Under the pieces are notes generated by a model, which was given only the letters and a program-made list of their open reading frames with translations, made no database searches and was not told where the DNA came from. The position numbers were made by a program, and so were the translations under genes. From assembly GCA_016794525.1 (NCBI GenBank), contig JAEUJY010000034.1, positions 1 to 64,000 of the forward strand: 64,000 bases of DNA. The letters run 5' to 3'. Each line of letters begins with the position of its first letter. The stretch's first letter is position 1. Shown one piece after another: positions 21,204 to 60,405 of the stretch. The DNA comes from Myxococcales bacterium (GTDB lineage: Bacteria; Myxococcota_A; Polyangia; Haliangiales; Haliangiaceae).

Positions 21204-22544
21204 CTACGGCGCGACCCGCGCCCGCAGCGTCGTCACGTCGCGGCGCAGCTTGGCCACCGCCGCCTGCCAGTCGGTCATCGACGGGCCGAAGCCGTCGGTC
21301 GCCACCTCGGGCGCCAGCTGCGCCGCCAGCGCGTCGATCTGCGCCTCGAGCACGCCGGGGCCGGCCGGCCCGGCCAAGAGCTCGGCGGTGCGCGCCTGGT
21401 AGTCGCTCCACAGCACCTGCGCCATCAACGCGGTCAGGTGGTCGCAGGCCGGCGGGCGCCCGTAGTAGCCGAGGAAGATCGACCGGCGCGTGCAGTCGGT
21501 GGGCGACGCGTTCCAGTCGGGCATGCCGTAGCTGGTGCGGATCGGGCTCGGCACCTGCATCGTGTTGTCGACGTCCCACGGCACCAGCCACAGCCGATCG
21601 CGGCCCGGCTCCTCGTACCAGTAGAAGTTGTGGTTGGCGCAGGTGCCGCCGGTCGCGCTCGCGCAGTACCAGCCGACGAAGCCGTCCCAGTTGTCGACCA
21701 GCCGATCGACCGCGAGGAAGCTCACCAGGTTCGGCAGGTCGAGCCAGGTCGTCGCCGTCGCGCGGAACGTCGCCGGCGTCGCCGCGGCCAGCGCCGCCGC
21801 GAACCGCACCATGCGATCGACGTTGGGGGCGGTGGCGTTGGTCTCGAGCGCGGCGACGTACGGCGCCGCCATCGCGTGCTCGGGCCACACCTCCTTGTAG
21901 AGGTTGCCGCCGCCGCTGCCGTCGATCGCGCGGAAGTGGTCCTGCACGAACTCGCGATCGATCGCCTCGACCAGCACGAACAGCCCGAGGTCGGCGCCGT
22001 TGACCCGCACCCGCGCGTGGGCCGCCCGCGGCGCGGCGACGCCGGCCGCGCGGTAGAGGCCGTAGACGATGCGCTCCTTCATCTCGGACGCGTCCCGCAT
22101 CATCGCGTGCAGGTTGAGGTGCTCGAGCCCGACGAACCGCTGGTCGGCGACGTACTCGTCGAAGTCGAGCTTCATCGACAGCTTGGGGCAGCGGCGGTTG
22201 CCCTGCGCGTCGAAGCACAGCCGCAGGCTGCCGACCGAGCCCTTGTAGCGCACGCCCAGCCGCGCGACGGTGACGCCGTTCCAGGTCAGGTCGGCCGGCA
22301 CGTACTGCTCGAGCAGCGGGTTGGCGTTGAGCCAGTCCCAGTCGGCGGCGGCGACGGTCAGGTCGAGCGTGCGGATCTGCGACTCGTCGAACAGGTCGGC
22401 CGCGGTCGGCCCCGGCGGCGCGTCGATCGGCGCGTCGACCGCGTCGACCGGCAGCGCGTCGACCCCGCCGTCCCCGCCGCCCCCGCCACAGCCCGCGGCC
22501 ACGGCCGCCGCCACCAGCATCGTCGCCACGCGCGCAGGTCGCAT
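21204..22544 (-). CDS. CotH-kinase-family lipoprotein
   Basis: 446 residues from the ATG at 22544. The lipobox is AVAAGC, followed by a Gly/Asp run and an Asp/Ala/Pro linker (DAVDAPIDAPPG). The CotH fold is recognisable by GVRYKGSVGS, KLSMKLDF, HAMMRDASEMKERIVYGLYR, LGLFVLVEAIDREFVQDHF, and NFYWYEEPGRDRLWLVPWDVDNTM, the last supplying the metal-binding D-x-D. CotH proteins are secreted protein kinases of the Fam20C/SelO-like superfamily. The lipobox places this one outside the cytoplasmic membrane, where the ATP source is unclear. It stands between PanE and a DUF3109 gene without obvious partners. Confidence 0.8.
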   Translation of the reverse strand: MRPARVATMLVAAAVAAGCGGGGGDGGVDALPVDAVDAPIDAPPGPTAADLFDESQIRTLDLTVAAADWDWLNANPLLEQYVPADLTWNGVTVARLGVRYKGSVGSLRLCFDAQGNRRCPKLSMKLDFDEYVADQRFVGLEHLNLHAMMRDASEMKERIVYGLYRAAGVAAPRAAHARVRVNGADLGLFVLVEAIDREFVQDHFRAIDGSGGGNLYKEVWPEHAMAAPYVAALETNATAPNVDRMVRFAAALAAATPATFRATATTWLDLPNLVSFLAVDRLVDNWDGFVGWYCASATGGTCANHNFYWYEEPGRDRLWLVPWDVDNTMQVPSPIRTSYGMPDWNASPTDCTRRSIFLGYYGRPPACDHLTALMAQVLWSDYQARTAELLAGPAGPGVLEAQIDALAAQLAPEVATDGFGPSMTDWQAAVAKLRRDVTTLRARVAP

Positions 22545-49042: not shown

Positions 49043-51235
49043 ATGATCTCTCGTCAGCGCTCACCGCTCATCGCCACGCTCCTCGCCGCCGCCGCGCTCG
49101 CCGGCTGCGGCGGGGCCAAGCGCTTCCGTTACCCGACCGCCGACTCGCCGCTCAAGCTCGACCGCGTCGTGCTGTACCGCAACGGCGTCGGCTACTTCGA
49201 GCGCACCGGCAAGATCGACGGCGACCTGCTCACGCTCAAGGTCCGCAAGGACCAGGTCAACGACCTGCTCAAGAGCCTGACCGTCGTCGAGCGCAAGAGC
49301 GGCAAGGCGGTGTCGGTGTCGATGCCGCTCGACCCGCAGACCTGGGCCAACGCCGCGCTCGCGACGTTGCGGCCAGGGCAGGGCAGCCTGGCGCAGGTGC
49401 TCGACTCGCTGCGCGGCTCGACGGTGACGCTGGCCACCGACGACGGCCGCGTCCACGGCCGGATCGCGATGGTCGAGCAGCTGACCGAGCCGGCCGGCGA
49501 CGACGACGGCGCGCCGCGCAACGACCACCGGGTCACGCTGCTCGACGGCGATCACCTGCGCGTCGTCAAGCTGTCGACGGTCCGCGGCATGACGCTCGAG
49601 GACGGCGACCTGGCGATGCAGTTCAACCGCACGCTCGACGCGTCGGCCGGCGAGGGCATGTTCCAGCAGGTCGAGGTGTCGATCCGGCTGGTCGGCGCGT
49701 CGACGCACGACCTGCTGGTCAGCTACGTGGTCGCGGCGCCGATGTGGAAGCCGACCTACCGCGTCGTCGTGCCCAAGGAGGCCAAGGGCAAGGCGCTGCT
49801 GCAGGCCTGGGCGGTCGTCGACAACACCAGCGGCGAGGAGTGGGACGACGTCCGGCTCGCGCTGACGTCGGGCGCGCCGATCGCGTTCCGCTACGATCTG
49901 CACACGCCGCGCGAGGTCGAGCGCCCCGACATGACCGCGGTCGGCGATCAGCGCCAGGCGGTGGCCGCGGTCGGCGAGACCACCTACACGCCGATGCCGG
50001 CGCCGCCGCCGGCGGTGGCGAGCGCGCCGCGGCGGCCGATGCCGTCGCCCAAGGCGGGTGGCGGTGCGGGCTACGGCCGCGCCGCCGCCGAGCCGTCGGC
50101 CGCGTACGACGAGGACGGCGAGTACGCGCGCACCGAGGACTACTACGGCGGCGAGGAGGTCAACGAGCCCGAGCCCGGCATCGACTACGACACGCTGCGC
50201 CGCTCGACGATGGCCCAGGCCAAGGCCGAGACCACCGCCGGCCAGACCCGCTTCGAGCTCGGCGAGCGGGTGACGGTGCCCGAGGGCACGTCGACGATGG
50301 TGGCGATCGTCAACGCCGACGTCGACGGCGAGCAGGCGTTCCTGTACCGCCCGGGCGGCGCCGGCCCCGGCTACCCGTACAACCCGTACCGCGTCGTGCG
50401 CTTCAAGAACTCGACGCCGTTCGTGCTCGAGCCGGGCCCGATCGGCATCTACGCCGGCGGCAGCTTCGTCGGCGAGGGCCTGTCGGAGACCGTCGGCGCC
50501 GACACCAGCGCGACGATCCCGTTCGCGGTCGAGACCGGCGTGCTGGTCTCGACCGACAGCGCCAGCGACTCCGACGAGATGCGGCTGGTCAAGATGTCGC
50601 GCGGCGTGCTCGAGGTCGAGCAGTTCTCGCGCCGCACGACGACCTACACGGTCAAGGCGATCACCGACGACGACGGCTTCACGCTGCTGATCCGCCACAA
50701 CAAGGCCGGCGGCAGCTACGTGCTGGCGGCCCGCCCCGACGGCACCGAGGACCTGCCCGACGGCTACCTGCTGCGCCTCGTCGTGCCGGCCGGCCAGCGC
50801 GAGGGCAAGCTGACGATCGTCGAGCAGACCCCGAGCCGCTCGACGATCAGCATCTGGAACGCGCCGGCGATCGACCTGCTCGATCGGCTGCTGGTCGACG
50901 CGTCGATCGGCGCCGACGCGAAGAAGAAGCTGCGGCCGATCATCGACCGCCGCCGCGAGGTGGCCAAGCTCGAGGAGCAGCTCCGCGGCCTGACCCAGAA
51001 GCGCGACCAGCTCGATCAGCGCGCCAACGAGCTGCGCCAGAACCTGCAGGCGATCGCCAAGAACCCGGCGGCCGGCGAGCAGCGCGCCAAGTGGACCAAG
51101 CAGCTCGACGAGTTCACCAGCGAGGGCAACAAGCTCGGCGCGCAGCTGGCCGACCTCGAGGCCAAGCGGCTCGACGGCCGGGTCGAGCTCGAGAACGCGC
51201 TCGAGAACTTCGAGCTGACGATGCCGACCAAGTAG
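49043..51235 (+). CDS. DUF4139-domain lipoprotein
   Basis: 730 residues from the ATG at 49043. Lipobox ALAGC, then GGAKRF. The N-terminal part (VVLYRNGVGYFERTG, KVRKDQVNDLLKSLTVVE) is typical of DUF4139 proteins. YVVAAPMWKPTYRVVVPKE and WAVVDNTSGEEWDDVRLALTSG form the DUF4139 core near 240. A disordered Pro/Glu/Tyr-rich segment spans 300-390, and the C-terminal 90 residues are a coiled coil (EEQLRGLTQKRDQLDQ and further). The family is related to mucoidy-inhibitor-A-like proteins. The function is unknown; a structural envelope role is likely. Confidence 0.8.
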   Translation: MISRQRSPLIATLLAAAALAGCGGAKRFRYPTADSPLKLDRVVLYRNGVGYFERTGKIDGDLLTLKVRKDQVNDLLKSLTVVERKSGKAVSVSMPLDPQTWANAALATLRPGQGSLAQVLDSLRGSTVTLATDDGRVHGRIAMVEQLTEPAGDDDGAPRNDHRVTLLDGDHLRVVKLSTVRGMTLEDGDLAMQFNRTLDASAGEGMFQQVEVSIRLVGASTHDLLVSYVVAAPMWKPTYRVVVPKEAKGKALLQAWAVVDNTSGEEWDDVRLALTSGAPIAFRYDLHTPREVERPDMTAVGDQRQAVAAVGETTYTPMPAPPPAVASAPRRPMPSPKAGGGAGYGRAAAEPSAAYDEDGEYARTEDYYGGEEVNEPEPGIDYDTLRRSTMAQAKAETTAGQTRFELGERVTVPEGTSTMVAIVNADVDGEQAFLYRPGGAGPGYPYNPYRVVRFKNSTPFVLEPGPIGIYAGGSFVGEGLSETVGADTSATIPFAVETGVLVSTDSASDSDEMRLVKMSRGVLEVEQFSRRTTTYTVKAITDDDGFTLLIRHNKAGGSYVLAARPDGTEDLPDGYLLRLVVPAGQREGKLTIVEQTPSRSTISIWNAPAIDLLDRLLVDASIGADAKKKLRPIIDRRREVAKLEEQLRGLTQKRDQLDQRANELRQNLQAIAKNPAAGEQRAKWTKQLDEFTSEGNKLGAQLADLEAKRLDGRVELENALENFELTMPTK

Positions 51236-51270: not shown

Positions 51271-51861
51271 CTACGGCGTGCAGCTCAGGCGGTGGAAGGT
51301 GGCGGTCAGCTCGACCCAGGCGCCGTCGGCGTCCTGGTAGCGGTTGCGCGCGCCCCAGGTGTTGCCGGTCAGCGGGCCGCGGAACCAGTCGTGGATGTAG
51401 CCGCCGGTGGGGCCGTCGCAGGTGTGGCGATCGGACAGGATCGTGACGGTGCGGACCTCGAGCCCGTCGGCGGTCGCCCGCGCCTCGCAGCGCAGCTGGG
51501 TGATGCCCCAGGCCGGCCCGCCGCGCGGGCACGCCGGCGGCCGCAGCGCGTCCTCGGGGCCGTCCCACCAGCGGGTCTCCTCGAAGCACGTCAGCGCGCC
51601 CGCGACCTGGCGCAGCTCGATGCGGAACTCGTTCCAGTGGCCGTCTTCGAACGAGCGGCCGACCCACAGCCCGACGTGCGGATCCGGGCAGCCGGTGCTC
51701 GCGACGTCGGTGGGGGCGGTGGCCTCGACGGGGCCGGCGTCGATGGGCGCGGCGCGCGGGCTCGCCGGCGCGGGCGGAGGCGGCGGCGCGGGGGGCGGCC
51801 GATCGCGGTCGCTGCCGCACGCCGTCGCCAGCATCAGCGCCAGCGCGATCCACGCCCTCAC
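51271..51861 (-). CDS. Small lipoprotein, tandem paralogue 2
   Basis: 196 residues from a GTG overlapping the upstream stop (GTGA). Lipobox LATAC, then a Pro-rich linker. The mature part has GCPDPHVGLWVGRSFEDGHW, LTCFEETRWWDG, DRHTCDG and ends HRLSCTP. It shares with the upstream gene the order GCPDP, GLW, CPxGG, HTCD, GNTW and the ending (H)R(L/V)SCTP, so the two arose by tandem duplication. The function is unknown; the Cys pattern suggests disulfides. Confidence 0.7.
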   Translation of the reverse strand: MRAWIALALMLATACGSDRDRPPPAPPPPPAPASPRAAPIDAGPVEATAPTDVASTGCPDPHVGLWVGRSFEDGHWNEFRIELRQVAGALTCFEETRWWDGPEDALRPPACPRGGPAWGITQLRCEARATADGLEVRTVTILSDRHTCDGPTGGYIHDWFRGPLTGNTWGARNRYQDADGAWVELTATFHRLSCTP

Positions 51862-52445
51862 GGCGTGCAGCTCACGCGGTGGAACCGGTACGGCTTGTCG
51901 ACGTCGTCGCCGCCGTCGTTGTTGACCGTGTCCCAGGTGTTGCCGCGCAGCGCGCCGGTGAAGTGGTCGAGGTTGTAGCCGGGGATCTCGTAGTCGCAGG
52001 TGTGGCGCTCGACGTCCATCGTCACGCTGCGCAGCTCGAGGATCGGCGGCCGCTCGATCACCTCGCAGGTGAGCAGCACGTCGTGGTACGCGAACCCGCC
52101 CGACGGGCAGCGCGGTGGGTTGACGTCGGCGGCCTCGCCCGGCCAGGACCGCGACTCCTGGTGGCAGTACAGCGTCCCGCCGCGGCGGTCGAGGCTGACC
52201 CGGTGCTCGTACCACTTCACGCCGTCGTACCGGCGCGCCAGCCACAGGCCCGCCACCGGGTCGGGGCACCCGCCGGTCGGCGCCTCGGCCGCCACGGCCG
52301 CGGTCGGCGCGGAGGCCGGGCGGGGGCGGGGGCGCGGCCAGTCGTTCGGCTCGTCGCAGCCCGCGGCGCCCAGCCCGACCGCGCCCAGGGCCACCGCGCC
52401 GACGGTGAGCCAGCGTCGAGCCGCGCGCGCGTGCATCGCGGTCAT
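51858..52445 (-). CDS. Small lipoprotein, tandem paralogue 1
   Basis: 195 residues from the ATG at 52445 (ATG 52436 is possible). Lipobox GAAGC, then DEPNDWPRP and a Pro/Ala linker. The mature domain has GCPDPVAGLWLARRYDGVKW, GTLYCHQESRSWPG, VERHTCDYEIPGYNLDHFTG and ends HRVSCTP. It is the first gene of a two-gene operon with a 4-bp overlap. The family is not recognised. Confidence 0.7.
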   Translation of the reverse strand: MTAMHARAARRWLTVGAVALGAVGLGAAGCDEPNDWPRPRPRPASAPTAAVAAEAPTGGCPDPVAGLWLARRYDGVKWYEHRVSLDRRGGTLYCHQESRSWPGEAADVNPPRCPSGGFAYHDVLLTCEVIERPPILELRSVTMDVERHTCDYEIPGYNLDHFTGALRGNTWDTVNNDGGDDVDKPYRFHRVSCTP

Positions 52446-52625: not shown

Positions 52626-53597
52626 ATGCGCGCACGCACCCTCGCCTCAGCATCCAGCCTCGTTCTCGCGCTCGCCGCGTGTGGCGGCGATGACGGTGGC
52701 TCCACGGCCGACGCCGGCGTCGACGCGCCGCTGGGCGATCCGACGATCCTCACCGGCTCGGTCGACGTCGTCCTGGTCGACGCCGATCCCAAGTACACCA
52801 CGATCAACGCCGTCGTGAGCGACGGCGCCAAGCCGGTGCTCCCGATCCTCGACACGATGACCACCGACGGCGACTGTCGGCTGCTCATCCCGGCGTACCC
52901 GTTCTGCACCACGTCGTGCGGCACCGGCGTGTGTGTCGCCGACGAGACCTGCATGCCGTACCCGACCTCGCAAGACGTCGGCACGATCCACGTCACCGGT
53001 GTGCACACCGCCGCGGGCGCGAGCGAGCTCGATCTCACCCACATCGTCGGCAGCAACGGCGCCCACTCGTACCAGCAGGGCGCGACCACGCTGGCCTACC
53101 CCGGGTTCGCCGAGGGCGATCCGATCACCGCCGCGATCAGCGGCGGCACGTTCACCCCGCCGTTCACGATGTCGAGCACCGGCATCGCGCCGCTCGTCGT
53201 CACCAGCGCCCCGCCGACGATCGACCGCAACACGCCGGTCACGGTCACGTGGACCCCGCCCGCGAGCGGCGCGACCTCGCGCATCCTGGTCAAGGTCGAG
53301 ATCAGCCACCACGGCGGCTTCCGGGGGCAGGTCGAGTGCGACACCGCCGACGACGGCAGCCTGACCCTCGGCGGCCCGCTCCTGACCCAGCTGCTCGACC
53401 TCGGCGTCGCCGGCTTCCCGACGATCGAGACCGAGCGCAAGGTCGTCAGCTCCGGCCTCACCACCGCCGGCAGGGTCGAGCTGACCGTCAGCTCGGCGAT
53501 CGCGCAGGCGGTCACCATCCCCGGCGTGATCTCGTGCACCGACGACACCGAGTGCACGCCGCCCGCGACCTGCCAGGACGACCTCACCTGCCGCTGA
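52626..53597 (+). CDS. Lipoprotein with Asp-rich linker, first gene of operon
   Basis: 323 residues, ribosome site GGAGGAG. Lipobox ALAAC, then GGDDGGS and an Asp/Ala linker. The mature protein is beta-rich, with Cys clusters (PFCTTSCGTGVCVADETC) near 100 and a C-terminal SCTDDTECTPPATCQDDLTC of the disulfide-stalk kind common in myxobacterial surface proteins. The middle (LVVTSAPPTIDRNTPVTVTW) reads like an Ig-type domain. The next four genes follow at 11, 39, 90 and -1 bp on the same strand. The function is unknown. Confidence 0.7.
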   Translation: MRARTLASASSLVLALAACGGDDGGSTADAGVDAPLGDPTILTGSVDVVLVDADPKYTTINAVVSDGAKPVLPILDTMTTDGDCRLLIPAYPFCTTSCGTGVCVADETCMPYPTSQDVGTIHVTGVHTAAGASELDLTHIVGSNGAHSYQQGATTLAYPGFAEGDPITAAISGGTFTPPFTMSSTGIAPLVVTSAPPTIDRNTPVTVTWTPPASGATSRILVKVEISHHGGFRGQVECDTADDGSLTLGGPLLTQLLDLGVAGFPTIETERKVVSSGLTTAGRVELTVSSAIAQAVTIPGVISCTDDTECTPPATCQDDLTCR

Positions 53598-53608
53598 CCA
53601 GGAGCCCC

Positions 53609-54424
53609 ATGCGCACTCTCCCCGCCATCCTGAGCCTCTCGCTCGTCGCCGCGGCCTGCGGCGGCGACGACGCCGCCGGCCCCGACGCCGCGATCGACGC
53701 CGATCCGCACTCGCTGCCGCACTTCTCGTTCTTCGTGACCAGCCTGAAGGCGCTGCAGGAGCTGTCGGGCAACCCGATGGGCTTCGGCGGCGATCTGCGG
53801 TTCGGCGAGACCGGCCCCGGCGCGGGCCTGCGCGGCGCCGACAAGCTGTGCGCGACGATCGCCGAGCGCAGCATGCCGGGCGCGGGCGCCAAGGACTGGC
53901 ACGCGTTCCTGTCGGCCGCCGACGGCGGCACCGGCCAGCCGGTCCACGCGATCGAGCGCATCGGCCCTGGCCCCTGGTACGACCGGCTGGGCCGGATGCT
54001 GGCGCCCGACGTCGCGTCGCTCATGAGCATCCGTCCCCAGGGCGGCGACCCGACGATCAAGAACGACTTCCCCAACGAGGATGGCGTCCTCAACCACAAC
54101 CCCGACGGCACGGGCGAGGTCGACAACCACGACATGCTGACCGGCTCCAACGCCCAGGGCCGCCTCGAGGCCGCCGATCGGACCTGCCTCGACTGGACCG
54201 CGAACGCCGGCAACGAGGCGGTCGAGGGCGAGCCCCGGGTCGGCCACTCGTGGCCGCGCGACGGCTCGCCGATCCAGATCAACGGCTGGATGTCGTCGCT
54301 GATCGAGTCGGGCTGCGCGCCGGGCGTGGCGCTGATCGAGATGGGGCCGCCGGACCCGAACTCCAACACCGTCGGCTCGGGCGGCGGCTACGGCGGCTTC
54401 TACTGTTTCGCGCTGATCCCGTGA
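53609..54424 (+). CDS. Lipoprotein with lectin/endostatin-like domain, paralogue 1 of 3
   Basis: 271 residues. Lipobox VAAAC, then GGDDAAGPDAAIDADP. The domain begins PHFSFFVTSLKALQELSG and contains GADKLCATIAERSMPGAGAKDWHAFLSA, split between a Cys helix and a WxAFLS strand, then GPWYDRLGRMLAPD, and ends CLDWTA, SGCAPGV and YCFALIP. This D-x-L-C-x3-A...W-x-AFLS...PWYDR order resembles the collagenase NC10/endostatin-like branch of C-type-lectin folds. Four conserved Cys probably make two disulfides. The ligand is unknown. Confidence 0.75.
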   Translation: MRTLPAILSLSLVAAACGGDDAAGPDAAIDADPHSLPHFSFFVTSLKALQELSGNPMGFGGDLRFGETGPGAGLRGADKLCATIAERSMPGAGAKDWHAFLSAADGGTGQPVHAIERIGPGPWYDRLGRMLAPDVASLMSIRPQGGDPTIKNDFPNEDGVLNHNPDGTGEVDNHDMLTGSNAQGRLEAADRTCLDWTANAGNEAVEGEPRVGHSWPRDGSPIQINGWMSSLIESGCAPGVALIEMGPPDPNSNTVGSGGGYGGFYCFALIP

Positions 54425-54463
54425 GCGGGCCGCGCTGATCACTCACTCACTCGCGAGGTCTGG

Positions 54464-55303
54464 ATGCGCAAGTTCTGGGGACGCAGCTCGGTGTTCGTGT
54501 TCGTGCTGGCCGCGGCCTGCGGCGGCGACGATGGTGGCGGCGCGGTCGACGCGCCCGAGGCGATCGACGCGGCGATCGACGCCGATCCGACGACGCTGCC
54601 GCACTTCTCGTTCTTCGTGACGAGCCTGAAGGCGCTGCAGGAGCTGTCGGGCAACCCGATGGGCTTCGGCGGCGACCTGCGGTTCGGCGAGACCGGTCCG
54701 GGCGCGGGCCTGCGCGGCGCCGACAAGCTGTGCGCGACGATCGCCGAGCGCAGCATGCCGGGCGCGGGCGCCAAGCAGTGGCGCGCGTTCCTGTCGGCGA
54801 GCAACGACGGCAACGGCAACGTCGTCCACGCGATCCAGCGCATCGGCAACGGCCCCTGGTACGACCGGCTGGGTCGCCTGCTGGCCCCCGACCTCGCGTC
54901 GATGATGGGCACCCGCCCGGCCGGCGGCGACGCGACGATCAAGAACGACTTCCCCAACGAGGACGGCGTCCTCAACCACAACCCCGACGGCACCGGCCAG
55001 GTCGACAACCACGACATGCTGACCGGCACCAACTCGCAGGGCATGTTCGAGGGGCCGACCCGGACCTGCCTCGACTGGACCGCCAACGCCGGCAACGAGG
55101 CGCTCGAGGGCGAGCCCCGGGTCGGCCACTCGTGGCCGCGCGGCACCACCGGCCCGAGCGCCGCGTGGATGTCGTCGCTGATCGAGTCGGGCTGCGCGCC
55201 CGGCGTGTCGCTGATCGAGATGGGCCCGCCCGACCCGACCTCCAACACCGTCGGCTCGGGCGGCGGCTACGGCGGCTTCTACTGCTTCGCGCTCATCCCG
55301 TGA
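54464..55303 (+). CDS. Lipoprotein with lectin/endostatin-like domain, paralogue 2 of 3
   Basis: 279 residues. Lipobox AAAC, then GGDDGGGAVDAPEAIDAAID. The mature domain is nearly the same as its neighbours: LRFGETGPGAGLRGADKLC, KQWRAFLSASNDGNGNVVH, GNGPWYDRLGRLLAPDLAS, HNPDGTGQVDNHDMLTG, and the same four Cys. The differences gather in the linker, in the loop after WRAFLSA and before the C-terminal SSLIESGC. The near-identity points to recent tandem duplication or ongoing gene conversion. Confidence 0.75.
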   Translation: MRKFWGRSSVFVFVLAAACGGDDGGGAVDAPEAIDAAIDADPTTLPHFSFFVTSLKALQELSGNPMGFGGDLRFGETGPGAGLRGADKLCATIAERSMPGAGAKQWRAFLSASNDGNGNVVHAIQRIGNGPWYDRLGRLLAPDLASMMGTRPAGGDATIKNDFPNEDGVLNHNPDGTGQVDNHDMLTGTNSQGMFEGPTRTCLDWTANAGNEALEGEPRVGHSWPRGTTGPSAAWMSSLIESGCAPGVSLIEMGPPDPTSNTVGSGGGYGGFYCFALIP

Positions 55304-55320
55304 GGCGACGCGGGCGTCGC

Positions 55321-55373
55321 GCGGTGACGTCCTGGTTACGACTTTCTTACGACGGCGGTGCGAACGTCACCGC
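55321..55373. promoter_or_regulatory. Inverted repeat around a direct repeat, upstream of the third paralogue
   Basis: GCGGTGACGT (55321-55330) and ACGTCACCGC (55364-55373) are perfect 10-bp inverted arms. Between them TTACGAC occurs twice with an 11-bp period (55336 and 55347). The arrangement looks like an internal promoter with an operator, placed about 20 bp before the start of the third paralogue. Confidence 0.5.
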
Positions 55374-55393
55374 CTACTCATAGCGAGGCCTCG

Positions 55394-56284
55394 ATGCGCA
55401 AGCTCTCTGTGTTCGCGATCCTGACGATGGCCGCCTGCGGTGGCGGCGGCGGCGACACCCCGGCGATCGACGCGCCGGACGTGACCGACGACGGCGGCCT
55501 GATCGACGCGCCGCCCGGCGCGATCGACGCGCGGGTCATCGACGCGCCGACCGGCCCCGACGCCGACCCGTCGACGCTGCCGCACTTCAGCTTCTTCGTG
55601 ACCAGCCTGCGCGCGCTGCAGGACCTGTCGGGCAACCCGATGGGCTTCGGCGGCGACCTGCGGTTCGGCGAGACCGGCCCGGGCGCGGGCCTGCGCGGCG
55701 CCGACAAGCTGTGCGCGACGATCGCCGAGCGCAGCATGCCGGGCGCCAGCGCCAAGCAGTGGCGCGCGTTCCTGTCGGCGTCCAACGACGGCAACGGCAA
55801 CGTCGTCAACGCGATCCAGCGCATCGGCACCGGCCCCTGGTACGACCGGCTGGGCCGGATGCTGGCCCCCGACGTCGCGTCGCTGATGGGCATCCGCCCG
55901 GCCGGCGGAGATGCGACCATCAAGAACGACTTCCCCAACGAGGACGGCGTGACCAACCACAACCCCGACGGCACCGGCAACGTCGACAACCACGACATGC
56001 TGACCGGCACCAACCTGCAGGGCATGTTCGAGGGACCGACCCGGACCTGCCTGGACTGGACCGCGAACGCCGGCAACGAGGCGCTCGAGGGCGAGCCCCG
56101 GGTCGGCCACTCGTGGCCGCGCGGCAACACCGGCATGATCAACTCGTGGATGTCGTCGCTGATCGAGTCGGGCTGCGCGCCGGGCGTGTCGCTGATCGAG
56201 ATGGGCCCGCCCGACCCGAACTCCAACACCGTCGGTTCGGGCGGCGGCTACGGCGGGTTCTACTGCTTCGCGCTGGTGCCGTGA
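55394..56284 (+). CDS. Lipoprotein with lectin/endostatin-like domain, paralogue 3 of 3
   Basis: 296 residues, with a longer linker than its sisters. Lipobox TMAAC, then Gly run and AIDAPDVTDDGGLIDAPPG. The domain is as in the other two (SLRALQDLSGNPMGFGGDL, SAKQWRAFLSASNDGNGN, GTGPWYDRLGRMLAPDVAS, YCFALVP). Its stop overlaps the start of the ATP-grasp lipoprotein (TGATG), suggesting coupled translation. It has its own upstream operator-like repeat. Confidence 0.75.
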   Translation: MRKLSVFAILTMAACGGGGGDTPAIDAPDVTDDGGLIDAPPGAIDARVIDAPTGPDADPSTLPHFSFFVTSLRALQDLSGNPMGFGGDLRFGETGPGAGLRGADKLCATIAERSMPGASAKQWRAFLSASNDGNGNVVNAIQRIGTGPWYDRLGRMLAPDVASLMGIRPAGGDATIKNDFPNEDGVTNHNPDGTGNVDNHDMLTGTNLQGMFEGPTRTCLDWTANAGNEALEGEPRVGHSWPRGNTGMINSWMSSLIESGCAPGVSLIEMGPPDPNSNTVGSGGGYGGFYCFALVP

Positions 56285-58350
56285 TGGGGCGCTCGATCGT
56301 CCGCGCGCTCGCGGTGGTGGTGCTGGCCGCGCTGGCCGCGTGCGGCGACGACGTCGCGGTCGCCGTCGACGCCGGCCCCGACGCGTTCCAGGTGACCGAG
56401 GGCGCCTGCCAGATCACCGACACCGCCAACCCGCCCGACTCGCTGAGCACGGTGACGTGCGGCGCCGACTTCACGACGCTGGCGTCGCAGCCGCTCGACG
56501 CGACCCTGCCGGGCTCGCAGTCGGTGAAGGTCGTCATCGATCAGGCCGGCGGCGACGCGCTGTACTTCATGAACACGGTCGCGTTCGAGATCCACTACGA
56601 GTTCGTCTCGACGCACCTGTCGGGCGGCAGCCTGCCGGTCGTCGGCACGCTGGCCGACTTCAACTCGACGCAGTACTTCGCGCCCGATCGCCGGTTCCTG
56701 CTCGGCGCGGTGACCTACTACGAGCAGCCGCAGAAGTGGGTGCTCGAGCTGGCGCCGTACGACACCGCGTCGGTCGAGATGATCACCAAGCTGTTCCTGC
56801 AGGTGAAGCACGCCGCGTTCTTCGGGCCGGAGCTGGCGTTCCACCCGACGTCGTCGGCGCTCGAGACCGTGGCCGCGACGCTGCCCGAGGCAGTGCCGGT
56901 GGTGACCACCGACGACCTGTACGCCGGCACCGACTACCAGCCGCTGTCCCTGGCGACCGCCTACGGCTACCTGCACTTCACGACCGCCGCCAACCTCGCC
57001 ACCGAGTTCCTGCCGCCGCGCACGATCGTCGTCCTCGACGAGGCGCCCAACGACATCTCGGTGGTGCAGGGCCTGATCACCGAGACGTTCCAGACCCCGC
57101 TGTCCCACGTCAACGTGCTGTCGCGCAACCGCCACACGCCCAACATGGGCCTGCGCGGCGCGCAGACCAACACCATCCTGCGCGGCTTCGACGGGCAGCT
57201 GGTCAAGCTGGTGGTCAACGCCGACGCGTGGTCGATGACCGCGGCGACGCTGACCGAGGCCCAGGCGTGGTGGGACGCCCACGCGCCGGCGCCCGTGACC
57301 CTGCCGACCGCCGATCAGATGACCACCGCGTTCACCGACATCGAGAACGTGACGCCGGATCCGACCGGCCCGCAGACGCTGCGCGACGCGATCAAGGAGG
57401 CGGTCAAGACCTTCGGCGGCAAGGCCGCGCACTACTCGCTGCTCCGGCGCACGGCGAACGTGCCGATCAAGAAGGCGTTCGGCATCCCGATGGCCTGGTA
57501 CTTCCAGTTCATGACGGCGAACGGGTTCTTCGCCCGGATCGACGCGCTGCTCGCCGATCCGCAGTTCGTCGGCGACGCCGCGACCCGCGACGCGGCGCTG
57601 GCGCAGCTGCGCGCCGACATCCTGGTGGCGCCGTTCGACCCGGCGTTCGACGCGGCGCTGACCGCCAAGGCCGCCGAGTACCCGACGGCGGCCAAGCTGC
57701 GCTTCCGCACCAGCAGCAACAGCGAGGACCTCGACGGGTTCCCCTGCGCCGGTTGCTACAACTCGTACACCGGGCTGCGCAGCGACGTCGAGGCGATGAA
57801 GACGGCGATCCGCAAGGTCTACGCCGACGTCTGGACGTTCCGCACCTTCGAGGAGCGCACCTACTACCGCGTCGATCACAAGAGCGTCGGCATGGCGCTC
57901 CTGGTCCACGAGAACTTCGAGGCCGAGGAGGCCAACGGCGTGGCGGTGACCGCCAACCCGTTCGACGCCAGCGGCCTGGACCCGGCCTTCTACATCAACG
58001 TGCAGTACGGCGGCGACGTCGAGGTGGTGGCGCCGCCGCCCGGCACCACCAGCGATCAGATCCTCTACTACTTCAACCAGCCCAACCAGCCGATCAGCTA
58101 CCTGACCCACTCGAACATCATCACCGCCGGCACCACGGTGCTGACGCCGGCGCAGCTGTACGCGCTCGGCCGGGCGATGGACGCGATCCACACGCGCTTC
58201 TCGGCCGCCTACGGACCGGCGTCCGGCAACAACGGCTGGTACGCGATGGACATCGAGTTCAAGTTCGACGACCAGGCCACGCCGGGCTCGCCGACCTTGT
58301 ACGTGAAGCAGGCGCGGCCGTACCCCGATCCGTTCGGCGGCGTCGAGTAG
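56284..58350 (+). CDS. Lipoprotein with PEP-synthase-type (PPDK_N) ATP-grasp domain
   Basis: 688 residues; lipobox ALAAC, then GDDVAVAVDAGPDA. About residues 40-230 are an unrecognised beta-rich domain (YFMNTVAFEIHYEFVSTHLS). Around 245-310 lies a swivelling phosphohistidine-like segment with TPLSHVNVLSRNRHTPNMG (His275). From 377 on is the pyruvate,phosphate dikinase-type ATP-grasp: FGGKAAHYSLLRR, VPIKKAFGIPM, LRFRTSSNSEDLDGF (Arg475, Glu481), VGMALLVHENFEAEEANGVAVT, ending YVKQARPYPDP. The PEP-binding TIM barrel is absent, and the swivel precedes the ATP-grasp, opposite to PEP synthase. Export of an ATP-using fold is unusual. Confidence 0.8.
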   Translation: MGRSIVRALAVVVLAALAACGDDVAVAVDAGPDAFQVTEGACQITDTANPPDSLSTVTCGADFTTLASQPLDATLPGSQSVKVVIDQAGGDALYFMNTVAFEIHYEFVSTHLSGGSLPVVGTLADFNSTQYFAPDRRFLLGAVTYYEQPQKWVLELAPYDTASVEMITKLFLQVKHAAFFGPELAFHPTSSALETVAATLPEAVPVVTTDDLYAGTDYQPLSLATAYGYLHFTTAANLATEFLPPRTIVVLDEAPNDISVVQGLITETFQTPLSHVNVLSRNRHTPNMGLRGAQTNTILRGFDGQLVKLVVNADAWSMTAATLTEAQAWWDAHAPAPVTLPTADQMTTAFTDIENVTPDPTGPQTLRDAIKEAVKTFGGKAAHYSLLRRTANVPIKKAFGIPMAWYFQFMTANGFFARIDALLADPQFVGDAATRDAALAQLRADILVAPFDPAFDAALTAKAAEYPTAAKLRFRTSSNSEDLDGFPCAGCYNSYTGLRSDVEAMKTAIRKVYADVWTFRTFEERTYYRVDHKSVGMALLVHENFEAEEANGVAVTANPFDASGLDPAFYINVQYGGDVEVVAPPPGTTSDQILYYFNQPNQPISYLTHSNIITAGTTVLTPAQLYALGRAMDAIHTRFSAAYGPASGNNGWYAMDIEFKFDDQATPGSPTLYVKQARPYPDPFGGVE

Positions 58351-58353
58351 CGA

Positions 58354-60180
58354 TCACTTGCCCAGCGGGAACGGCACGCTGACCAGCTCGGTCTTCTTGC
58401 TGACCTCGCCGTCGCCGTAGCCGCCCGGCAGGTCCACTTCGAGGCCGCGGCTCAGCGCGAAGCGGAGCGTGCCCTGCTTCGCGCCGAGGTCGAGCTCGAC
58501 CTCACCCTCGAGGCCGATCGAGCCCTCGACGCCGGCCAGGCCCTCGTCGGCGAGCGCCTGCGCGACCAGCTCGCCGGCGCCGTTGATCACGCTCGGCAGC
58601 GCCTGGGCCGCGGCGGCCAGCGTGCCGTCAGCGGCGCGGGCCTTGGCGGTGCCCTCGGGCGACGTCGGCGCGGCGGCGGTGAGCGCGGCGCGGACCTGCG
58701 CGATCGCCTGGCTGGCGAACGCCGCGTACTTGCCCAGCCCGCCGGCCAGCTTGGCGTCGACGTCGCCGCCCGCGGTGAACGTGAGCGTGCCGGCGCCCTG
58801 CTCGGTCAGCGGCACCTCGAGCTCGAAGCCGCCGGAGATGTCCTTGACCTCGACCTCGCCCTCGACCGACAGCACCAGCGCGTCCTTGGTGCTGACCTGG
58901 CCGTCCTCCTTGGTGATCGTCCGCTCGCCAGCCAGCGCCGCGGAGCCCTCGACGCCCTCCTCGCCCTCGTCGACCGCGCCCGCGAACTTGCCGCCGGCGG
59001 TGAAGCCGGCCTCCTCGCCGTCCTGCATCGCCGCCATCGCCTCGGCGGCGTGGCCCTTGCCCCAGATCGCGTCGGCGATCAGATCGGACGGGCGGTGGCC
59101 GTGGGCGGCGGCGAACGCGACCAGCATCGCGAGCGGGATGCTGCGGCTGGCCGCGGCGATGAAGACGCCGTCGGGGATCGCCCGCACGTAGCTCTCCATC
59201 GCCAGCACCAGCATCTCGACGGCGCGGGTCGCGTCGGCGCCCTTGCCGCTGAACGACGAGGTCGCCATCAGATCGCAGAACGCGCCGGTCTCGCCGATCG
59301 ACAGCCCGAGGCCGCCGCTGGCCTCGACCGAGACGCCCTGATCGTCGTGTTCGACCTCGATCGCCAGCTCGCCGCTCAGGTTGAGCGGCGGGTACACTGG
59401 GACGCGCGCCATCGCCTCGATCTCGAGCGACGTGCCCGGCTGCGGCGCGGCGCTGGCGATCATGCCGGCGAGGATCTGCTTGCCCATGGCCTGCAAGTCG
59501 CGCAGCGTCACCGCGGCGGGGTCGCCGGCGGCCGCCGTCGTCGCCGGCGCAGGGGCGGCGGTCGGCGTGGCGGTGGCCTCGGCGCGCTGCACGCCGGCGG
59601 TGGCACCGCCGCCCGTGTGCTCGTCGAGGATCGCCTCGGCCGAGGCGCCGGCCACGACCGCGGCGGCGACGCGATCGGCGTGCTGTTCGTAGGGATCGCC
59701 AGCCGCGCCAACGCCGCCGGCCAGCTGCACGCCGGCGCGCTGCTGCACGACGTGGGCGGCCTCGTGAGCCGCGGTGAACAGGTCAGGGCCGTCGGCGAAC
59801 GCCACCGCGCCGTTGGCCGCGTAGGCGCGGGCGCCCAGCGCGGCGCTGGCCTCGGCGGCAGCACCGCCGACGTGGGCCGGCGTCTGGCTGACGTCGTGAC
59901 GGCCGAACGCGCGCTGGATCGTCGCGCCGTGGGGCAACGCCGTCGCTGCGCCGGTCATGCCGCGCGCGGCGATCACGTCGGGCGCGTCGCCGAGGTGCAG
60001 GCTCCACGCGGCGTCGAGGTCGCCCTTGCGCTGCACCGGCGCGGCGCTCGGTGGGGGCGCGCTGCCGCGCGCGATCCGCGCCGGGAGGCTCTGGGTCAGG
60101 CTGCGCTTGCCGACCTGCGGCGAGGCGCGGGTGGCGGTGGCGGGCGCGTCCTCGAGATCGCGGAGAGCGTGATCGAACAT
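58354..60180 (-). CDS. DUF4157 (eCIS-associated) protein
   Basis: 608 residues from the ATG at 60180. About residues 70-175 are a DUF4157 domain: [42 protein letters not shown] with the HExxH (His139, Glu140, His143), QQRAGVQ and [16 protein letters not shown]. The rest is an Ala-rich linker and a long beta-rich region with repeated [25 protein letters not shown]4157 proteins are often cargo or toxins of extracellular contractile injection systems. No eCIS structural gene is visible in this window. It is tail-to-tail with the ATP-grasp lipoprotein. Confidence 0.75.
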
Positions 60181-60405
60181 GGCGAGGGAGACAGCAACCG
60201 GCGCGCCAGGTCGGTTCACGATGGAGCTCACATACTTGGCCGGGGCGGTGGGCGCTGGAGGGCCCGTCTGAGCGCCATCGATGGGCAGTGGGCGTCCCGG
60301 TTGGTCGGGGCCCCGCTCACGGGCGGCCTGGCCCCGGGTGCGGGGCCCCCAATGTCGCAATGCGGGACGACGCAGGCTCGCAAGTATGCGTGTTTATGCA
60401 ATATG

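Follow-up and report, generated by a model that had tools for sequence, protein, structure and literature searches.

An exported and apparently intact dikinase raises the question of where, outside the inner membrane, its phosphoryl group would come from and what its target would be. The question is posed here by gene E, the last of five consecutive lipoprotein genes (A-E, 52626-58350) in a 64,000-nucleotide stretch of DNA, hereafter the window, from a Myxococcales bacterium (GenBank assembly GCA_016794525.1, contig JAEUJY010000034.1). The source genome comprises 9.8 Mb in 177 contigs and has metagenome-assembled genomes of Kofleriaceae among its close relatives. Genes B, C and D encode three endostatin-like proteins, also called lectin-like below, and E combines an ATP-grasp domain with a phosphohistidine domain. 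Literature searches found no described counterpart of an exported lipoprotein system built on pyruvate phosphate dikinase (PPDK) or another dikinase. The answer that we tentatively favour is a surface phosphotransfer module encoded by A-E, which would act on a polymer outside the cell and in which A-D would serve as binding partners.

Results

The C-terminal half of E matches the Pfam family PPDK_N (residues 376-679 of 688, E-value 7.8e-23), which is present in 27/27 E homologues. An AlphaFold2 model built on the 27-homologue alignment has a mean confidence (pLDDT) of 88.8. In this predicted model, residues 346-688 align with the ATP-grasp domain of rifampin phosphotransferase (RPH; 5hv1) at Z 29.6 over 295 residues and 2.5 Å, and the domain also matches phosphoenolpyruvate (PEP) synthase (2ols, Z 28.4) and PPDK (Z 21.4). 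Residues 214-321 match the swivelling His domain of RPH (5fbu, Z 11.5, 99 residues aligned, 2.4 Å). The order given by the model is thus N-terminal domain, His domain, ATP-grasp, which is the order of the plant enzyme glucan, water dikinase (GWD). GWD phosphorylates starch and has a phosphohistidine domain followed by PPDK_N at the C-terminus. The first-pass annotation, made from the sequence alone, had assigned a PEP-synthase-type ATP-grasp domain to E; the domain type holds, but E is not a bare ATP-grasp protein, being dikinase-like, with a His domain of its own in the inverted, GWD-like order. A PEP-utilizers Pfam match in L075 was disregarded because it covers residues 358-383, outside the His domain.

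The residues expected of a working enzyme are conserved among homologues that diverge down to approximately 30% identity to E. Where aligned in 92 sequences, there is no variation at His275 (92/92), Lys380, Arg475, Glu481, Asp482, Arg525, Gln676 or Arg678, and conservation at Asp656/Glu658 is 96%. A profile alignment places the conserved residues on the PEP-synthase motifs GGK, VRSS...ED, DIE and QAR. Given the invariance of His275, Lys380, Arg475, Glu481 and Asp482, phosphotransferase activity of E is probable.

The cluster is conserved well beyond the window. The survey of 56 genomes took in the window's own genome and those of its relatives; 16 of them contain a strong lectin-like match (E-value < 1e-40), and none has more than a handful of lectin-like genes. 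The lectin-like gene lies within approximately 3 kb of a strong E match in 15 of these 16, and in the remaining genome (G011) both genes abut contig ends, which is compatible with adjacency. Co-occurrence of the lectin-like and PPDK_N lipoproteins, the test proposed by the first-pass annotation, is therefore seen in 16/16 genomes, counting the probable case at the contig break. Scanning public genomes added 80 named loci, mostly from Myxococcota (Sorangium cellulosum, Polyangium, Archangium, Hyalangium, Nannocystis, Pyxidicoccus). For the named loci of the E clade with 8 kb or more on each side (fully sampled, n = 15), gene A is found within 8 kb in 14 and a lectin-like gene likewise in 14, and all 49 A or lectin-like neighbours are co-oriented with E. 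The core unit is A + lectin-like + E. The earlier proposal of a surface-lipoprotein system is borne out as far as a conserved set with strict co-occurrence in other genomes is concerned; the modification of a polymer, which it also suggested, is something we infer.

Genes A-E run in one direction with spacers of 11, 39 and 90 bp (A-B, B-C and C-D) and with the start of E overlapping the end of D by 1 bp (ATGA type), an operon-like run that would be read as a single transcript. A sigma-70 promoter scan of the cluster found none and a terminator scan of the + strand found a single weak 5-pair stem, both scans being uninformative in DNA of 70-73% G+C. Each of the five products begins with a signal peptide that runs up to a lipobox-like Cys, namely LAAC (A), AAAC (B), AAAC (C), MAAC (D) and LAAC (E), with an atypical -3 residue in B, C and D. 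The five genes, their coordinates with small gaps or overlaps, and the lipobox-like cysteines of the first-pass annotation were thereby all recovered. The lipobox is conserved in 88/107 homologues of E, 52/69 of B-D and 66/85 of A. The residue after the Cys (+2) is Gly in all of A-E and mostly Gly or Ser among homologues. In Myxococcus xanthus, Lys at +2 marks inner-membrane lipoproteins, and the outer-membrane ones have no noticeable signature (PMC3222651). Because +2 is Gly and not the Lys linked to inner-membrane retention, these signals make placement in the outer membrane likelier than in the inner membrane.

No gene accompanies E-type genes more constantly than A, which is also present in paralogous clusters that have no lectin-like gene. 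No Pfam family matches A. Its predicted model (pLDDT 90.9) is all-beta and gave weak Foldseek matches, mostly to fibronectin type III (FNIII) and immunoglobulin (Ig) chains; as the TM-scores were low throughout, the Ig/FNIII-like fold class is tentative.

The products of B, C and D are 81-88% identical in pairwise comparisons (DNA identity 85-91%, synonymous divergence dS 0.14-0.24), so that the paralogy noted earlier is right and "near-identical" slightly too strong. C and D are sisters in the tree, and at the otherwise syntenic locus of the close relative G006 there is a single copy, which identifies the triplication as local; the tripling is an ordinary local duplication. Single copies score below the Pfam cut-off for DUF1554 (16.7-23 bits in B, C and D against 27.5), and a PDB search with C alone gave no match. 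At the level of the family, 29/29 members match DUF1554 (E-values up to 0.1), 15/29 match Endostatin weakly, four Cys are invariant, and the family profile has three endostatins as its only, weak PDB matches (E-value ~0.01). The endostatin-like assignment made at first pass agrees with these family-level matches.

Beyond the core unit, the Pfam families that occur most often among 100 neighbours at E-clade loci are DUF4956 (12), VTC (8), lamin-tail domain (LTD, 7), CotH (5), TolC-type outer-membrane efflux protein (OEP, 5) and HlyD (5). VTC or DUF4956 occurs within 8 kb at 13/29 E-clade loci, compared with 0/9 loci that have a lectin-like gene and no dikinase; the association between the lectin-like gene and this wider module is modest (Fisher p 0.016, not corrected for kinship). 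CotH kinases are found near E at 9/29 E-clade loci. The charged tunnel residues of VTC are intact (86-100% per site in 22 sequences) and the protein has no predicted membrane span, whereas the DUF4956 proteins have 3-4. Phosphate-selective-porin-like and phytase-like proteins also occur in the neighbourhoods of relatives. Proteins of ~560 aa are encoded in the same neighbourhoods (L126 5685-7361, L133 13356-15056 and L134 4631-6325), those of L126 and L133 with an N-terminal thymidylate-kinase domain (PF02223). None of the VTC, DUF4956, HlyD, TolC, lamin-tail or CotH genes adjoins the cluster in the window. The window's own genome has one VTC and one DUF4956 match, both on other contigs, and for the window copy the link to these families is indirect. 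The VTC gene, the sole one of that genome, precedes a gene whose product resembles a Na/Pi cotransporter, as judged from sequence (L190 9531-12375, contig C102).

Paralogues of E occur elsewhere in the same genome. One (L089 7069-11881, contig C39) is flanked by a lamin-tail lipoprotein on one side and a CotH kinase with a fused C-type lectin domain on the other, with a Ser/Asp-repeat lipoprotein alongside. Two distant, exported paralogues with ~33% identity (L090 3505-5517, contig C1; L091 10092-12008, contig C24) have no lectin-like, gene A, VTC or CotH neighbours and a far stronger PPDK_N match (E-value ~1e-51). The features of the cluster are collected in Table 1.

Table 1 Coordinates of the five genes of the cluster and of the domains of E within the window
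Feature	Position	Strand	Description
Gene A	52626-53597	+	Lipoprotein, 323 aa, all-beta with sandwiches that are tentatively Ig/FNIII-like; without Pfam family; the neighbour most constantly found with E
Gene B	53609-54424	+	DUF1554/endostatin-like lipoprotein, 271 aa
Gene C	54464-55303	+	DUF1554/endostatin-like lipoprotein, 279 aa
Gene D	55394-56284	+	DUF1554/endostatin-like lipoprotein, 296 aa; sister of C in tree
Gene E	56284-58350	+	Surface dikinase-like lipoprotein (predicted), 688 aa; start overlaps stop of D
E N-terminal domain, residues ~40-213	56401-56922	+	D86, H104, Y131, D160 invariant (92 sequences); candidate acceptor-binding domain
E swivelling phosphohistidine domain, residues ~214-321	56923-57246	+	His275 codon 57106-57108; structural match 5fbu
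E ATP-grasp PPDK_N nucleotide-binding domain, residues 346-688	57319-58347	+	K380, R475, E481/D482, D656/E658, Q676/R678; Pfam and structure match

Elsewhere in the window, a CotH kinase family protein (PF08757, E-value 8e-41) is encoded approximately 30 kb from the cluster at 21204-22520 (-). Directly downstream of E, on the opposite strand, is a gene for an eCIS_core domain protein (58354-60360 (-), PF13699, E-value 3.5e-7). Upstream, a 730-aa DUF4139 lipoprotein (49043-51235 (+)) and a pair of small lipoproteins (51271-52445 (-)) are encoded in an arrangement that is syntenic in G006.

Discussion

Export signals, a GWD-like domain order and invariant catalytic residues meet in E, within a cluster that is conserved across Myxococcota. 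If A-E do form a surface phosphotransfer module, export would leave all five products attached by a lipid anchor, most likely to the outer membrane and presumably facing outwards. The ATP-grasp domain of E would load phosphate from an ATP-type donor onto His275, and the His domain would then swivel and hand it to an acceptor on the N-terminal domain, as GWD does for starch. The Ig/FNIII-like A and the endostatin-like B-D may bind or present that acceptor, for which a glycan or matrix protein outside the cell is the probable candidate, and the three endostatin-like copies could provide dosage or binding diversity.

Several points weigh against this proposal. The main difficulty is the donor, as no available ATP is known in the periplasm or beyond the cell. 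Carbohydrate-binding Pfam families (starch- or glucan-binding modules) were found neither in E nor in its homologues. The recurrent polyphosphate-polymerase neighbourhood is suggestive as a hint on the phosphoryl donor, but VTC or DUF4956 is present at only about half of the E-clade loci, and the cluster in the window has neither nearby. An extended scheme is conceivable, and we consider it unlikely: VTC and DUF4956 would make polyphosphate or a phosphorylated product and move it across the inner membrane, export would be of the HlyD/TolC type, and surface dikinases with their Ig- and endostatin-like partners would either use this phosphate or transfer it to a polymer outside the cell. In that case E would represent the first dikinase of the GWD kind to be exported. 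The recurrent linkage with VTC, DUF4956, CotH and export genes gives a way to probe this so far unexplained neighbourhood by experiment, and the carriers of the cluster include named bacteria (Sorangium, Polyangium, Archangium, Nannocystis and Pyxidicoccus).

The same neighbours allow E to be read as a surface enzyme on small molecules, one that would recover phosphate or energy, e.g. from polyphosphate, released nucleotides or phosphorylated metabolites, while the other lipoproteins capture the source. VTC, phosphate-selective-porin-like and phytase-like proteins in the neighbourhoods, the intact VTC tunnel and the position of the own-genome VTC gene beside the protein that reads as a Na/Pi cotransporter would all suit such a role. 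We regard it as rather doubtful: Ig/FNIII-like and endostatin-like partners suit large ligands better, there is no VTC near the window cluster, and we know of no PPDK-type enzyme that uses polyphosphate.

It is improbable, in our view, that E is instead an atypical exported protein kinase that works alongside CotH, with the endostatin-like or A lipoproteins, or matrix proteins, as acceptors. The recurrence of CotH at E-clade loci (9/29) points in this direction, as do the near-obligate partnership of E with A and the lectin-like proteins and the own-genome paralogue beside the CotH and C-type lectin protein and the Ser/Asp-repeat and lamin-tail lipoproteins. We know of no characterised PPDK_N enzyme of the E type that phosphorylates such structural proteins.

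A compartment without known ATP and partners that all look like binding proteins could also mean that E is a catalytically silent scaffold for nucleotide or polymer binding and the cluster an adhesion or matrix complex. We give this little credence, since invariance of H275, K380 and R475 in 92 divergent sequences is unusual for a pseudoenzyme family. That unrelated lipoprotein genes, one of them duplicated, came together by chance is very improbable and already largely refuted: although myxobacterial genomes have very many lipoprotein genes and additional lectin-like copies are found alone too, the linkage is conserved (adjacency in 16/16 genomes and 14/15 named loci, co-orientation 49/49, across Sorangium, Polyangium, Archangium, Nannocystis, Pyxidicoccus and Hyalangium) with few lectin-like genes per genome, which rules out chance clustering.

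Comparison with known systems

For the partners of the proposed polymer-directed module, the nearest likeness is found in the Len proteins of Leptospira (LenA-LenF), which are lipoproteins with an endostatin-like motif, occur as multiple paralogues and bind laminin and fibronectin (PMC2063517). That paper mentions no dikinase partner, and the B-D copies score under the DUF1554 cut-off; for B-D the Len binding data are no more than a lead towards a binding role. In streptococci and clostridia, CotH, a polyphosphate polymerase and DUF4956 are encoded beside the Pel polysaccharide genes (PMC7112168), and the VTC, DUF4956 and CotH families of these Gram-positive accessory genes also recur beside the dikinase cluster of relatives. 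In contrast, a PPDK_N lipoprotein, endostatin-like proteins and gene A products are not described in the pel clusters (PMC7112168), and the window cluster has no VTC, DUF4956 or CotH nearby.

Among enzymes, E shares the PPDK_N ATP-grasp fold with PEP synthase and PPDK, and the catalytic motifs with PEP synthase and RPH. In PEP synthase and PPDK the ATP-grasp domain is followed by the His domain and then a C-terminal PEP-binding barrel, whereas in E PPDK_N is C-terminal with the His domain ahead of it, and E was rejected as a PEP synthase on this order; the PEP-binding barrel family has no Pfam match in E or its homologues. With RPH it shares the folds of the ATP-grasp and swivelling His domains, but RPH runs from ATP-grasp through a rifampin-binding domain to the His domain, the inverse of E, which lacks the rifampin domain. 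E scores 44.5 bits with the NCBIfam model RIF_Ptrans_rph, far from its cut-off of 999. PEP synthase and RPH are cytoplasmic, whereas E carries an export and lipid-anchor signal.

E resembles GWD in that its phosphohistidine domain, which has a conserved His, precedes the nucleotide-binding domain; the His of the GWD domain is essential (PMC12892837). The corresponding family, GWD1_pHisD (PF22973), has no match in E itself and sub-threshold matches in 6/27 E homologues (best E-value 2.8e-4, 20.9 bits against a cut-off of 27). GWD does not appear among the PDB fold matches of E, which says nothing because high-resolution GWD structures are lacking (PMC12892837). E differs from GWD in being an exported bacterial lipoprotein, with an N-terminal domain that is unrelated as far as Pfam shows. 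Hence, E fits none of PEP synthase, RPH and GWD, each of which fails at least one of the tested features, and in how it would work it most resembles GWD.

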